A stretch of 64,000 nucleotides of DNA from Alphaproteobacteria bacterium (GTDB lineage Bacteria; Pseudomonadota; Alphaproteobacteria; UBA9219), in the NCBI GenBank assembly GCA_026225415.1, contig JAMFSS010000001.1:124001-188000 (forward strand), given 5' to 3'. How positions within the stretch are numbered: position 1 is the stretch's first letter; the number at the start of each line of letters is the position of its first letter. Both the position numbers and the translations under genes were made by a program. Shown one piece after another: positions 21,263-27,436 of this stretch. The notes below the pieces were generated by a model. It was given only the letters and a program-made list of their open reading frames with translations, made no database searches and was not told the DNA's origin.

Positions 21263-21371
21263 GAAGCGCCACGATTTTTTGTGCAGCGCAGCAATAATGC
21301 ATTGAAAACAAAAGATAACTTGAAAAATTCTCTTGATCGGCTTACTTCATTCACACGCAGAAGCGACATTT

Positions 21372-22427
21372 ATGAGTCGTTTCTCCGGGCAGAGTAAACA
21401 AACCTCGCATCACACAATGTCTATGCAAATGGCACACAAACAAAATTCGGACTCCAATCATCCTGTGCGCGACCGCGCCGTGGAACTGCAACGCTATTAT
21501 CGCGACATGCTTTTGATCCGTCGCTTTGAAGAAAAAGCCGGACAGTTATATGGCATGGGGTTGATCGGCGGTTTCTGCCATTTATATATCGGACAGGAAG
21601 CCGTCGTTGTCGGCGTGCAGGCGGCGCAAAAAGAGGGCGACAGCGTTATCACATCTTATCGCGATCACGGGCACATGCTGGCGTGCGGTATGGAATCGCG
21701 CGGCGTGATGGCCGAACTGACCGGACGCAGCGGTGGCTATTCGCGCGGCAAGGGCGGTTCGATGCACATGTTCAGCCGCGAAAAAGCGTTTTACGGCGGC
21801 CACGGTATTGTCGGCGCACAGGTGCCGCTCGGCGCCGGTTTGGCGTTCGCGCACAAGTATAAAAATGATGGCCATGTCGCGTTGACTTATTTCGGCGACG
21901 GCGCGGTGAACCAGGGACAGGTTTACGAAGCGTTCAACATGGCGGCCTTATGGAAATTGCCGGTTGTGTTCATCATCGAAAACAACAAATATTCGATGGG
22001 CACATCGCAGGCGCGCCACGCCGCCGGTGATTTATCAAAACGCGGCGAAGCCTATGGCATTCCCGGTATCAAGGTTGACGGCATGAATGTGATTGCCGTT
22101 CGCGAAGCTGCCGAAAAAGCCATTACCTATGCGCGTTCGGGGCAGGGGCCGATTATTTTGGAAATGGAAACCTATCGTTATCGTGGTCATTCCATGTCCG
22201 ACCCCGCCAAATACCGCCAGAAGGAAGAAGTCGAAGAAATGCGCGCCAAGCATGACCCGATTGAAACCTTGCGCGAATTGATGTTGAAGGAAAATATTCT
22301 GTCGGAAGATGGTTTCAAACTGATCGAACGTGAAGTCAAAGACATCGTGACCGACGCCGCCGAATTTGCGCAAAGCAGCCCGGAGCCCGAAGCAGCGGAA
22401 CTCTGGACAGATATTTTGGTGGATTGA
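21372..22427 (+). CDS. pdhA: Pyruvate dehydrogenase E1 component, alpha subunit
   Basis: About 351 residues from ATG 21372; the start is uncertain, with ATG 21417 also possible and neither having a clear ribosome site. It is the thiamine-diphosphate-binding half of the heterotetrameric E1: HLYIGQEAVVVG, SYRDHGHMLACG, GGSMHMFS (phosphorylation-loop region of mitochondrial homologues) and the TPP motif GDGAVNQGQVYEAFNMAALWKLPVVFIIENN. With PdhB it decarboxylates pyruvate and acetylates the E2 lipoyl arm. It is the first gene of a six-gene operon through lpd. Confidence 0.95.
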   Translation: MSRFSGQSKQTSHHTMSMQMAHKQNSDSNHPVRDRAVELQRYYRDMLLIRRFEEKAGQLYGMGLIGGFCHLYIGQEAVVVGVQAAQKEGDSVITSYRDHGHMLACGMESRGVMAELTGRSGGYSRGKGGSMHMFSREKAFYGGHGIVGAQVPLGAGLAFAHKYKNDGHVALTYFGDGAVNQGQVYEAFNMAALWKLPVVFIIENNKYSMGTSQARHAAGDLSKRGEAYGIPGIKVDGMNVIAVREAAEKAITYARSGQGPIILEMETYRYRGHSMSDPAKYRQKEEVEEMRAKHDPIETLRELMLKENILSEDGFKLIEREVKDIVTDAAEFAQSSPEPEAAELWTDILVD

Positions 22428-22428
22428 G

Positions 22429-22806
22429 ATGAGTCAATCGGTAAGAGCGCCCGCAGAAAAAATATGGGTCGTGGGCCGTTATGTGGACGAGGGGCAACCC
22501 ATCACGCCCGGCGAGCCCACTGTTGAAATTGCCTATGCCAGCGGTATGCATGAAACGCTACGTGCCGAGGATTTTGGTGTGGTCGCGCATGTCGAAGGCA
22601 AGCGCATCAATGTCGGCGAGGCGTTAAGCGACGGCGACCCACATAACGACAGCGGCGCTTCGATGTTCGATGAACATTCTGTGCTGTGCCATATCGTCGG
22701 TCGTCGCGACAGGAACTCGATCAAGGGTGGCGCGCCGCATCTTTCTACTTCCCGTGCCATTTCCAACGCCAAAGCCGTAGGGGCTTTGTTGCCAACTTAT
22801 GGATAG
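22429..22806 (+). CDS. Lipoyl-domain-like protein lacking the lipoylation lysine
   Basis: The protein has 125 residues from ATG 22429, one base after the pdhA stop and three bases before pdhB. Residues 16-70 align by eye with the lipoyl domains of PdhB and PdhC: YVDEGQPITPGEPTVEI against [16 protein letters not shown], and AEDFGVVAHVEGKRINVGEAL against the strands after the lysine turn. The DKA hairpin that takes lipoate is replaced by ASG (residues 37-39), so it cannot be lipoylated there. The C-terminal 50 residues are polar and unrecognised. It may be a structural or regulatory part of the PDH complex. Confidence 0.65.
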   Translation: MSQSVRAPAEKIWVVGRYVDEGQPITPGEPTVEIAYASGMHETLRAEDFGVVAHVEGKRINVGEALSDGDPHNDSGASMFDEHSVLCHIVGRRDRNSIKGGAPHLSTSRAISNAKAVGALLPTYG

Positions 22807-22809
22807 ACC

Positions 22810-24192
22810 ATGACTGTACAAATTCTTATGCCCGCGCTGAGTCCCACGATGACCGAAGGCAAAATTGCCCGCTGGCTGAAAAAGGAAGGCGACAAGATCA
22901 AGGCCGGGCAGATTATCGCCGAAATCGAAACCGACAAGGCGACGATGGAAGTCGAGGCGGTCGATGAAGGCACGCTGGGCAAAATCATCATCCCCGCCGG
23001 CACCGAAAATGTGAAGGTGAATGAGATTATCGCCGTGTTGTTGGAAGATGGCGAAAAACTGGAGGATGTGTCGATCGCCAAATATGCCGCGCCCGTTTCC
23101 GCCACGCCCGCGCCGAAACCCGTTTCCAATGTTGTGTCGATGCCTTCCGCGCCTGTGCAACCCGCCGCATCCCTCGCGCAACCGGAAAAGAAACACGATA
23201 AATATATCAAACAAACGGTGCGCGAAGCCTTGCGCGATGCGATGGCCGAAGAAATGCGCCGCGATCAGAATGTGTTTTTGATGGGCGAAGAAGTCGCGCA
23301 ATATCAGGGCGCGTACAAAGTCAGCCAGGGCTTGCTGGATGAATTTGGCGATAAACGCGTGATCGACACGCCCATCACCGAAATGGGTTTTGCCGGTGTT
23401 GGCGTTGGCGCGGCGTTTGGCGGGCTGCGTCCTATTGTTGAATTTATGACCATGAATTTCGCGATGCAGGCGATTGACCAGATTATCAATTCCGCCGCCA
23501 AGACATTGTATATGTCGGGCGGTCAAATGGGTTGCCCGATTGTATTCCGCGGCCCCAATGGCGCGGCATCACGCGTCGGCGCGCAACATTCGCAGTGCTA
23601 CGCCAGCTGGTACGCGCATGTGCCGGGGCTCAAGGTTGTCGTGCCTTACGATGCCGAAGACGCCAAAGGTTTAATGAAGAGCGCCATTCGCGATAACAAT
23701 CCCGTCATGTTTTTGGAACATGAAATTATGTATGGCCAGTCTTTCGATGTGCCGGATGACAAGGATTTTATCCTGCCCATCGGTAAGGCGAAAATTATGC
23801 GCGAAGGAACCGATGTCACCATCGTCGCGTTCTCGCGCATGGTCGGTCATGCGCTGGCGGCTGCGGAAGCCTTGGCTGCGGAAGGTATCAGCGCCGAAGT
23901 TATTAATTTGCGCTCGTTGCGCCCATTGGACACCGAAACGATTGTGAACTCGGTTCGCAAGACCAATCATGTTGTATCGGTTGAGGAAAGCTGGCCATTC
24001 GCCGGAATTGGCTCGGAAATCGCCGCTGTGGTGATGGAGCAGGCGTTTGATGATCTGGACGCCCCCGTGGTGCGCGTCACGGGTATGGATGTGCCCTTGC
24101 CCTATGCCGCGAATCTCGAAAAACTGGCGTTGCCGCAAATTGACAACATAGTTGAAGCCGTTAAACGCGTTCGTTTTCGTCAGGCTGCTTAA
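22810..24192 (+). CDS. pdhB: Pyruvate dehydrogenase E1 component, beta subunit with N-terminal lipoyl domain
   Basis: The protein has 460 residues. Residues 1-80 are a lipoyl domain ([21 protein letters not shown] ... [11 protein letters not shown], lipoyl Lys43). A Pro/Ala linker (about 95-125) leads to the transketolase-like E1-beta domain: [51 protein letters not shown] and the C-terminal swivel [19 protein letters not shown]. An E1-beta carrying its own lipoyl domain is a known alphaproteobacterial feature. It assembles with PdhA. Confidence 0.96.
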
Positions 24193-24213: not shown

Positions 24214-25512
24214 ATGCCCACGCAAATTCTTATGCCCGCGCTTTCGCCGACAATGACCGAAGGCAATCTGACCAAATGGTTGAAGAAAGAAGGCGACGTT
24301 GTAAAAGCGGGGCAGGTGATTGCAGAAATTGAAACCGACAAAGCGACGATGGAAGTCGAAGCGGTTGACGAAGGCAAGATTGTCAAAATTGTAATTCCCG
24401 CCGGTTCGCAGGGCGTGAAGGTGAACGCGTTGATCGCCATTCTGGCGGAAGAGGGCGAGAGTGATGAGGCGGCATTGGCTGGAGTTAAAGCACCCGCTGC
24501 GATAAATGCGCCTTCGGCGAGCCCCTCCCTCGCGGAGGCGCAATCTGCCAGTTTGCTTGGCAAGGCAAGTTCCGCGCTCCCCACAAGGGGGAGGGAATCT
24601 GCGTCTTCTGCGGCGTCTGCGGTTTCTCATACTGGAAATCGCGTTATCGCCAGCCCCTTGGCAAAACGTATCGCTGAACAATCGGGTATTAATCTGAACA
24701 ATGTGCGCGGTACGGGGCCGAATGGCCGCATTGTCAAAGCGGATTTGGAAAACGCATCTGTGCCTGTGCGTTCTGCCGCTTCGGCTCCCTCTGTCGGGCT
24801 TGATGTCGTCGACTATGCCACCAAGCTGGGCATGGCGTTCGACGAGCAACCGAACAGCAGCGTGCGCAAAGTTATTGCCAAGCGTCTGAGCGAATCCAAA
24901 CAACAGGTGCCGCATTTCTATCTGTCGGTCGATTGCGAGCTTGATGCGTTGCTGGACTTACGCAAGCAACTGAACGAAGCCGCTGGCACCAAAATTTCGG
25001 TCAATGATTTTATCATTCGCGCCACTGCTTTGGCGTTGAAGAAAATCCCCGCCGCCAATGCTTCATGGACGGATAACGCGATTTTGCTTTATAAAAATGT
25101 GGATGTTTCGGTGGCGGTTGCCACGCCCAACGGGTTGATAACGCCAATTATCAAAAAGGCCGACAGCAAAACCCTGTCGCAAATTTCATCGGAAATGAAA
25201 GACCTTGCCGCCCGCGCGCGCGATGGCAAACTGCGCCCCGAAGAATTTATGGGGGGCGGTTTCTCCATTTCCAACCTCGGCATGTTCGGGGTCAAAAGTT
25301 TTTCGGCCATCATCAACCCGCCGCAATCTTGCATTTTGGCGGTCGGTGCGGGCGAACAACGCGCGGTTGTCAAAAACGGCGCGTTGGCAATTGCCACGGT
25401 CATGACGGTTACATTGTCCGTCGATCATCGTTCGGTCGATGGTTCTGTCGGCGCAGAATTTTTGCAGGCGTTTAAGCCGCTGATTGAAAAACCCCATGCA
25501 TTGGTTGCGTAA
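24214..25512 (+). CDS. pdhC: Dihydrolipoamide acetyltransferase (PDH E2)
   Basis: The protein has 432 residues. It has an N-terminal lipoyl domain (Lys43 in [11 protein letters not shown]), a linker, a peripheral-subunit-binding domain (ASPLAKRIAEQSGINLNNVRG, about 146-180) and a catalytic domain ending in SVDHRSVDGSVGAEFLQAF with the active-site His and Asp. It transfers acetyl from lipoamide to CoA and forms the complex core. Residues 103-129 of the linker (SPSLAEAQSASLLGKASS ... PTRGRES) are encoded by an in-frame palindromic element at 24521-24600. The stop overlaps the next start (TAATG). Confidence 0.96.
   Translation: MPTQILMPALSPTMTEGNLTKWLKKEGDVVKAGQVIAEIETDKATMEVEAVDEGKIVKIVIPAGSQGVKVNALIAILAEEGESDEAALAGVKAPAAINAPSASPSLAEAQSASLLGKASSALPTRGRESASSAASAVSHTGNRVIASPLAKRIAEQSGINLNNVRGTGPNGRIVKADLENASVPVRSAASAPSVGLDVVDYATKLGMAFDEQPNSSVRKVIAKRLSESKQQVPHFYLSVDCELDALLDLRKQLNEAAGTKISVNDFIIRATALALKKIPAANASWTDNAILLYKNVDVSVAVATPNGLITPIIKKADSKTLSQISSEMKDLAARARDGKLRPEEFMGGGFSISNLGMFGVKSFSAIINPPQSCILAVGAGEQRAVVKNGALAIATVMTVTLSVDHRSVDGSVGAEFLQAFKPLIEKPHALVA
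24521..24600. repeat. Palindromic element inserted in frame within pdhC
   Basis: CCCCTCCCTCGCGGAGG opens and CTCCCCACAAGGGGGAGGG closes a unit of about 80 bp with a small internal inverted repeat around TTGCTTGGCAAGGCAAG. The framing matches the intergenic unit at about 1750-1833 (CCCCTCACC ... CTCTCCCACAGGGAGAGG). It keeps the pdhC frame open and falls in the flexible linker, where extra residues would be tolerated. Confidence 0.65.
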
Positions 25513-26039
25513 TGTCCGCCGCTGGTGGCTATTCTATCCGTGTTTTAACAGTCGATGATTGGCAAGCATTTTCCATAATGCGCCTTGAGGCTTTGCAAAA
25601 ATACCCTCAATTTTTTGGTTCGAGCTACGAACGGGAAAAGGCGTATAGCTCGGGTGATTGGCAACAGTGGCTTATACGCCAGGATGCGTGTTTGTTTGGT
25701 TTGTTTGATAAAGAACGCATTATTGGCATCACTGGCGCGATAACCGATAAATATGATGCGGCTATAGGCATGATGATTGCTAGCTATATCCAGCCCGAAT
25801 ATCAGGGCAGGGGATTATCGGCGCTGTTATACAAAGCCCGCATTGATTGGGCGTTGAATTATCTGGATTGGAAGAAACTTGTTATCTCTCATCACGAAAG
25901 CAATGAAACCTCGCGCCGCGCTAATCAAAAATGGGGTTTCCACTTTATCGGAAAAGCGCCAAGGAACTGGCCTGATGGTACAACGGCAGATGACTGGAAT
26001 TACGAACTTGATCTTGAACAACTGAGGCAGAAACAATGA
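25512..26039 (+). CDS. GNAT-family N-acetyltransferase
   Basis: This 175-residue protein has the GNAT order: N-terminal IRVLTVDDWQAFSIMRLEALQKYPQFFGSS, central IIGITGAIT, acetyl-CoA loop IQPEYQGRGLSALLYKARIDWAL (Q-x-x-G-x-G form), then VISHHESNETSRRANQKWGFHFIGK near the C-terminus. It acetylates an unknown amine. It is translationally coupled on both sides: its ATG overlaps the pdhC stop and its stop overlaps the lpd start. That suggests a long-standing operon position and possibly a target linked to pyruvate metabolism. Confidence 0.85.
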   Translation: MSAAGGYSIRVLTVDDWQAFSIMRLEALQKYPQFFGSSYEREKAYSSGDWQQWLIRQDACLFGLFDKERIIGITGAITDKYDAAIGMMIASYIQPEYQGRGLSALLYKARIDWALNYLDWKKLVISHHESNETSRRANQKWGFHFIGKAPRNWPDGTTADDWNYELDLEQLRQKQ

Positions 26040-27436
26040 CCACACAATCAACCGATCTCATCATTATCGGCGGCGGGCCGGGCGGTTATGTCGCCGCCAT
26101 TCGCGCATCGCAACTCGGGATGAAAGTCACGCTTGTTGAACGCGAACATTTGGGCGGCATTTGTTTGAATTGGGGCTGCATCCCCACAAAGGCTTTGTTG
26201 CGCTCATCGGAAATTCTCAACCTCATCAAACATGCGGATACATTCGGCATTACAGTCAAAGAATATTCGTTTGACCTTGCCAAAATTGTCGAACGTTCGC
26301 GCAAAGTTTCGGCGCAACTGGTTGGCGGCATTAAACATTTGATGAAAAAGAACAAAATCGAAGTTATCGAAGGTAGTGCCAGACTGCTGGGCGGCGGCAA
26401 AGTCGAAGTCACGGCGAATGATGGCAAAACATCGCAACTCTCGGCCAAAAACATCATCCTCGCCACCGGCGCGCGGGCGCGAACCCTGCCGGGGCTCGAG
26501 GCCGACGGCAAACTCATCTGGACATACAAAGAAGCCCTGCAACCCGATGTAATGCCGAAATCTTTGCTGGTCGTCGGTTCGGGCGCGATTGGCATTGAAT
26601 TTGCCAGCTTCTTCCGCGCCCTTGGTGCCGAAGTCACCGTGGTTGAGGTAATGGACAGGATTTTGCCCGTCGAAGATACCGAAATTTCTGCCTTTGCCCG
26701 CAAGTCGTTTGAAAAACAGGGCATGAAAATTATCACCGGCGCGACTGTCAAAAAATTGACCAAGAGCGATAGCAATGTCACGGCGACGATTGAGGCCGCG
26801 GGTAATCTGACGACACTGACATTCGAGCGCGTGATAATGGCGGTCGGCATCACCGGCAATGTCGAAAATATCGGTTTGGAAAATACCAAAGCCAAAGTGG
26901 ATCGTGGCCATGTTGCCATCAACCAATGGTCGGAAACCGGCGAGCCTGGCCTCTATGCCATCGGCGATGTCGCGGGCCCGCCCTGGCTGGCGCACAAAGC
27001 CAGCCATGAAGGCGTCATTGCGGTCGAACGTATCGCGGGCGTCAAGGGATTGCACCCGCTCAACACCGCCAATATTCCCGGTTGCACCTATTGCACACCG
27101 CAAGTCGCCAGCGTTGGTATGACCGAAGCCAAAGCCAAAGAAGCCGGACGGCAAGTCAAAGTCGGCCGTTTCAGCCTTGTCGGCAATGGCAAAGCTATTG
27201 CGTTGGGCGAACCCGAAGGCATGATCAAAACCGTGTTCGACGCCAAAACAGGCGAGCTGTTAGGCGCGCATATGATCGGCCCCGAAGTGACGGAAATGAT
27301 TCAGGGCTACACCATTGCCCGCACGCTCGAAACAACCGAAGCCGAATTGATGCATACGGTTTTCCCGCATCCTACTCTGTCAGAAGCGATGCATGAGTCC
27401 GTATTAGATGCTTATGGCCGCGTCATACATATGTAA
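26036..27436 (+). CDS. lpd: Dihydrolipoyl dehydrogenase (PDH E3)
   Basis: This 466-residue flavoprotein reoxidises dihydrolipoamide and reduces NAD+. It shows the FAD motif IIGGGPGGYVAAIRASQLG, the redox disulfide GGICLNWGCIPTKALL, the NAD Rossmann motif VVGSGAIGIEFASFF, the second FAD site LYAIGDVAGPPWLAHKASHEG and the C-terminal HTVFPHPTLSEAMHESVLDAYGR with the catalytic His-Glu pair. It is the last gene of the pdh operon. Confidence 0.97.
   Translation: MTTQSTDLIIIGGGPGGYVAAIRASQLGMKVTLVEREHLGGICLNWGCIPTKALLRSSEILNLIKHADTFGITVKEYSFDLAKIVERSRKVSAQLVGGIKHLMKKNKIEVIEGSARLLGGGKVEVTANDGKTSQLSAKNIILATGARARTLPGLEADGKLIWTYKEALQPDVMPKSLLVVGSGAIGIEFASFFRALGAEVTVVEVMDRILPVEDTEISAFARKSFEKQGMKIITGATVKKLTKSDSNVTATIEAAGNLTTLTFERVIMAVGITGNVENIGLENTKAKVDRGHVAINQWSETGEPGLYAIGDVAGPPWLAHKASHEGVIAVERIAGVKGLHPLNTANIPGCTYCTPQVASVGMTEAKAKEAGRQVKVGRFSLVGNGKAIALGEPEGMIKTVFDAKTGELLGAHMIGPEVTEMIQGYTIARTLETTEAELMHTVFPHPTLSEAMHESVLDAYGRVIHM

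Follow-up and report, generated by a model that had tools for sequence, protein, structure and literature searches.

What is the small gene that lies between pdhA and pdhB in the PDH operon of this alphaproteobacterium, and what could its product do there? The window analysed here, a stretch of 64,000 nucleotides of contig JAMFSS010000001.1, has the gene order eno, ftsB/DivIC, pdhA, X, pdhB, pdhC and lpd (Table 1), that is, the usual alphaproteobacterial run from eno to lpd with X as one additional gene, inserted between pdhA and pdhB. The initial annotation had described X as a degenerate lipoyl-domain protein with operonic spacing, and the coordinates of the open reading frames bear out the latter, since the pdhA stop codon leaves a gap of 1 bp to X, and the ATG of pdhB follows X after 3 bp. 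Further downstream, between pdhC and lpd, a GNAT acetyltransferase gene (25512-26039) overlaps its two neighbours by 1 and 4 bp. Searches with X of the window gave no match in Pfam, NCBIfam or PHROGs, and no convincing match among the PDB sequences.

Table 1. Features of the pdh locus and of gene X, in window positions.
Feature	Position	Strand	Basis
pdhA, PDH E1 alpha	21333..22427	+	TIGR03182, 507 bits; mechanical ORF, start codon uncertain
X, lysine-less lipoyl-fold protein, 125 aa	22429..22806	+	ORF with ATG start; orthologues, fold, codon-position conservation
X residues 11-56, best-conserved part: first half-barrel, hairpin, fifth strand	22459..22596	+	Alignment, predicted strands
X residues 37-39, hairpin tip ASG at the lipoyl-lysine (TDKA) site	22537..22545	+	Translation, alignments
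X residues 61-79, acidic Ser/Gly-rich loop, predicted disordered, in second half-barrel; shortened	22609..22665	+	Alignment, low pLDDT
X residues 84-90, last barrel strand SVLCHIV	22678..22698	+	Alignment, window model
X C-terminal SIKGGAPH, degenerate form of the tail motif RKxGLHPRN	22717..22740	+	Alignments
pdhB, PDH E1 beta with its own N-terminal lipoyl domain (ETDKA intact)	22810..24192	+	PRK11892, 800 bits; PF00364, 71 bits
pdhC, PDH E2, intact lipoyl domain and PSBD	24214..25512	+	TIGR01349, 552 bits
Probable lpd (E3), end of operon	26036..27436	+	Sequence and operon order

Before considering its function, it should be said that X is a real gene and that a chance open reading frame is excluded. 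Orthologues were found in four further species of the genus (G004, G005, G006 and G009) in a search of 59 relatives, and a scan of the genome contigs returned the same four congeners and nothing further. A divergent member, revealed by inspecting the gaps between pdhA and pdhB, occupies the same place in G013, which belongs to another genus; it scores 22.3 bits against the profile of the genus, the best of 2000 shuffles reaching 7.5. In G004, G005 and G006 the gene comes after pdhA, with pdhB next on the same contig in the latter two, while the contig of G004 ends after X and pdhB is found on a separate one. Hence the conservation of the frame between the two E1 genes, proposed from the outset as a check, was found in G004, G005, G006 and G013, and, counting the window, X is encoded with the PDH genes in conserved order in five genomes out of six, the remaining orthologue, that of G009, being relocated but intact. 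The coupling to pdhA is tight in four of the six, with gaps of 1 bp (window), 4 bp (G004), 2 bp (G005) and about 10 bp (G013).

The frame is intact in every one of the six members, and 24 alignment columns are invariant among the five congeners. Identity at codon positions 1, 2 and 3 is 0.67, 0.83 and 0.35, respectively, between G006 and G004, and 0.49, 0.68 and 0.35 between the window and G009; in every pair, second positions are far better conserved than third positions, and this pattern places X under selection at the protein level. Synonymous divergence (dS) is saturated between species, so that dN/dS values are indicative only. X evolves much faster than its neighbours, namely, with 28-38% identity within the genus, compared with about 80% for PdhA and PdhB.

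The family is narrowly distributed. X is present in one half of the genus only, and a five-member profile run on 24 family and 33 order genomes recovered no further X. Outside the genus and G013, none was found among 33 order and 385 class genomes at an E-value of 0.01, barring four weak matches, three of which proved, once the frames were read, to be E2 frames with lipoyl domains, while the fourth (G207) spans stop codons and looks like chance. A pdhA tree meant to date the gain of X left the genera unresolved. The pdhA-pdhB junction shows other peculiarities as well: the assembly of G002 breaks exactly there (start of contig C43, end of contig C44), possibly owing to a repeat, and two other genera, represented by G019 (L021, 2150-2586) and G015 (L022, 1113-1501), carry in this gap a different, hydrophobic frame, probably a membrane protein, for which the G019 sequence gave no match in Pfam. 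What looks like a fusion of E1-beta and E2 occurs in G094 (L039, 1372-3243, minus strand), where a single frame encodes a PdhB with its N-terminal lipoyl domain, then a PSBD and an E2 catalytic domain.

Kinship of X with the lipoyl domains of PDH is well supported at the level of the family. Against a lipoyl profile, X of the window on its own obtains a non-significant 1.8 bits (rank about 44 of 2000 shuffles), and the claim therefore rests on the family as a whole. When the six X proteins were compared, profile to profile and with shuffle controls, with 42 lipoyl domains, the score was 32.9, the best of 200 column shuffles reaching 19.6; leaving out G013, the genus still scored 26.4, with shuffles at most 17.3. 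An earlier profile-profile run on tiny alignments had given a probability of 2. The G013 protein is the most telling single sequence: it obtains 20.6 bits with the profile of the 42 PDH/E2 lipoyl domains, where no shuffle exceeded 8.4, and has Biotin_lipoyl (PF00364) as its best Pfam family (E 0.0017, 18.5 bits). The curated cut-off of PF00364, 22.1 bits, is reached by no X, and because both this score and the lysine are wanting, X is not classed in Biotin_lipoyl. Used as a query, the G013 protein matched the lipoyl end of many frames of PdhB or E2 size across Alphaproteobacteria, several of which were read. Its similarity to the lipoyl profiles of PdhB and E2 is about equal (19.7 and 18.3 bits), so that neither of the two is favoured as the source. 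Accordingly, the lipoyl-domain pattern claimed by the initial annotation for the window sequence is not significant in that sequence alone and is recovered at family level, just as the suggested profile search left X of the window without a Pfam match and raised the family above its shuffles.

Structure prediction points in the same direction. The AlphaFold2 model of X from the window has a mean pLDDT of 49.7, with blocks of 68-76 between residues 11 and 50 and low values over residues 58-125; nearly all of its best structural matches are barrel-sandwich domains, including BCCP (Z 8.3) and the lipoyl domain 1ghj (Z 7.8, 72 residues). The orthologue from G004 gave a better model, with pLDDT of 84-91 for residues 1-50 and of 69-79 for residues 91-110, low values at 59-93, and an acidic loop predicted to be disordered between the ordered parts. 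This model matches BCCP 5gua (Z 11.8, 71/71 residues, 1.4 A by VIA-align), HlyD (Z 11.9) and 1ghj (Z 10.6, 74 residues, 1.6 A), and a Foldseek search with it placed 2-oxoacid dehydrogenase E2 and lipoyl domains at the top. Although built on shallow alignments of five rows, the models support a predicted lipoyl/biotinyl barrel-sandwich hybrid fold for X; a prediction devoid of a lipoyl-type beta-barrel, which would have spoken against the first description of the gene, was not seen, the orthologue giving Z scores of 10-12 to BCCP and lipoyl domains.

What sets X apart from these relatives is found at the hairpin. The best-conserved part of the protein follows the pattern GRYVDEGQ..PG.P...I...G..ETL...DFGVVAHVEG, which aligns with positions 23-63 of the lipoyl domain. 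Where lipoyl domains have TDKA, the six members have YASG (window), TPEG, TPDG, KPDG, TPDG and TQSG, so that the position of the lipoyl-lysine is taken by S, E, D, D, D and S, and by lysine in none of them. The translation thus upholds the reported replacement of DKA by ASG, and extends to the whole family the claim that lipoate cannot be carried at this site: since no member has the hairpin lysine, X, judged from its sequence, cannot be lipoylated at the usual place. Inspection by eye revealed no conserved lysine in the barrel. The acidic loop is longer in the congeners than in the window and absent from the G013 protein, while C87, H88 and V90, at the last barrel strand, are invariant within the genus. 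X of the window has lost both the PDG hairpin and the tail motif, the latter being kept as RKxGFHPRN in G009. When the C-terminal tails were compared with a PSBD profile of 11 sequences, their scores did not rise above those of shuffles.

Two congeners provide natural deletions. In the draft assembly of G009, which is 96% complete, no PdhA, PdhB or PDH E2 was found, the sole lipoyl-E2 match being an OGDH-like protein of 410 aa; X is thus not confined to genomes in which PDH E1 or E2 is found. In this organism X lies between ftsB and rfaE (contig C108:3500-12000, L060), where pdhA, pdhB, pdhC and lpd are missing, and remnants of pdh genes are undetectable within 8.5 kb. Some of the window sequence that precedes pdhA can still be aligned with the region in front of the G009 gene, and this copy may, as the sequence weakly suggests, sit behind the old promoter. 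A POR_N (PFOR) gene occurs in G009, as it does in G008, G017, G022 and, weakly, G003; because of it, pyruvate in G009 is probably oxidised by PFOR, which may have replaced PDH. As G009 keeps X without PDH, the protein is either useful in the absence of the complex or recently orphaned. In G006, PdhB (L003, 48-1112) has no N-terminal lipoyl domain of its own, that of E2 being the sole intact one seen in this operon, and X is intact. The G006 locus also has GC-rich palindromic repeats flanking X on either side (L003, 1115-1285 and 1722-1815); around the repeat on the pdhA side, the end of pdhA is duplicated (TGGACTGACGTTTTGGTGGG), as if a mobile repeat had inserted there.

Taking all of this together, our best reading, to which we give a probability of roughly 0.4, is that X descends from a lipoyl domain of PDH type, either of E1-beta or of E2, that it lost the lysine, and that, made together with E1, it acts by docking to tune a 2-oxoacid dehydrogenase. 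The origin from a lipoyl domain is well supported, and docking is the mechanism that we infer: without a lipoyl group to swing, X would act through protein-protein contacts, and it is probably a binding partner and not a catalyst. The tight spacing to pdhA in the window, G004, G005 and G013 suggests that X may be co-translated with E1. Its lipoyl-like surface could then fill or span a site that lipoyl domains ordinarily contact, the likeliest partners being the E1 channel, the E2 core, E3 or the lipoate-attaching enzymes, while the acidic loop and the C-terminal RKxGLHPRN tail may provide specific contacts, the outcome being a change in the assembly or the activity of a 2-oxoacid dehydrogenase. 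Since G009 retains X while PDH E1 and E2 were not found, this enzyme need not be PDH. Against this reading count the same occurrence in G009, the presence in just half of the genus, the identities of 28-38%, the degenerate copy of the window, and the mean pLDDT of its model (49.7).

Whether the partner is nevertheless PDH itself is a related question. X may be a lineage-specific accessory PDH subunit that has so far gone undescribed: a lipoyl domain that cannot be lipoylated and is produced along with E1 would regulate or organise the complex by mimicking the genuine lipoyl domains or competing with them, a tentative reading that we regard as possible. It comes close to what the initial annotation had proposed, that is, a subunit that anchors, spaces or regulates E1, for which the close spacing to pdhA in four of the six genomes speaks, and against which stand X without PDH in G009, the narrow distribution and the fast evolution. 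The G009 genome also lends itself to another, somewhat less likely, interpretation, in which X originated in the pdh operon and has since come to act outside PDH, be it on the OGDH complex, on the attachment of lipoate or on some unrelated target; its position in the operon would then be a trace of its origin and expression. This would account for an intact X in an organism that has POR_N and lacks pdhA, pdhB, PDH E2 and nearby pdh remnants, and that has nonetheless retained the RKxGFHPRN tail and the coding pattern seen against its congeners; yet X stands beside pdhA in five genomes, no more than about 10 bp away in four of these, and G009 is a draft assembly at 96% completeness whose loss of PDH could be recent.

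The fast divergence and patchy occurrence of X, the degenerate motifs of the window copy and the repeat insertions around the gene in G006 would also be expected if X were a duplicated lipoyl domain in decay, weakly constrained and with no important role. We consider this unlikely, given that the frame has stayed intact in all six members, that second codon positions are better conserved than third ones, that 24 columns are invariant, and that in G009 X outlived the genes on both sides of it. Far more improbable is a sensor of metal or a small ligand built on a lipoyl scaffold: H54, C87, H88 and H104, invariant within the genus, make a candidate ligand site in the sequence, but none of the four is kept in the G013 protein, and a metal site is therefore not favoured.

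No named family or published protein like X was found in family libraries or in the open-licence literature, in agreement with the earlier statement that no PDH component of this kind has a name, although such searches are weak evidence of absence. The fold and the ancestry of X are known; what is new is a lysine-less, free-standing version in a PDH operon. With the lipoyl domains of PDH E1-beta (PRK11892 N-terminus) and E2 (PF00364), X shares the fold, the EGxxVxPGxxLxxI half-barrel, the hairpin with its following Gly, and the operon; it differs from them in being free-standing, in lacking the lipoyl-lysine, and in having an acidic loop in the second half-barrel and the RKxGLHPRN tail. BCCP domains, among the closest folds to the X orthologue, differ from it by their biotinyl-lysine and carboxylase neighbours. 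DUF2118 (PF09891; 3d4r), another barrel-sandwich, shares the fold class (Z 8.0 with the window model), and the G009 protein matches it weakly (E 0.074, below the cut-off); however, it is an archaeal protein from an unrelated context. E3BP/PDHX and Kgd4/MRPS36 organise 2-oxoacid dehydrogenase complexes without being catalytic; PDHX is an E3-binding protein with a lipoylated domain, whereas Kgd4 is not lipoyl-like. If X organises a complex, it would resemble these proteins in role.

Should X turn out to be no more than a duplicate in decay, it would be of little interest. If it docks like a lipoyl domain without lipoate, a 2-oxoacid dehydrogenase would have in it a natural pseudo-domain that serves as inhibitor, spacer or assembly factor, comparable to pseudokinases, and the case would illustrate the passage from catalytic carrier domain to regulator. 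The survival of X in a relative that lacks PDH and carries PFOR makes the question of its function testable by comparison.
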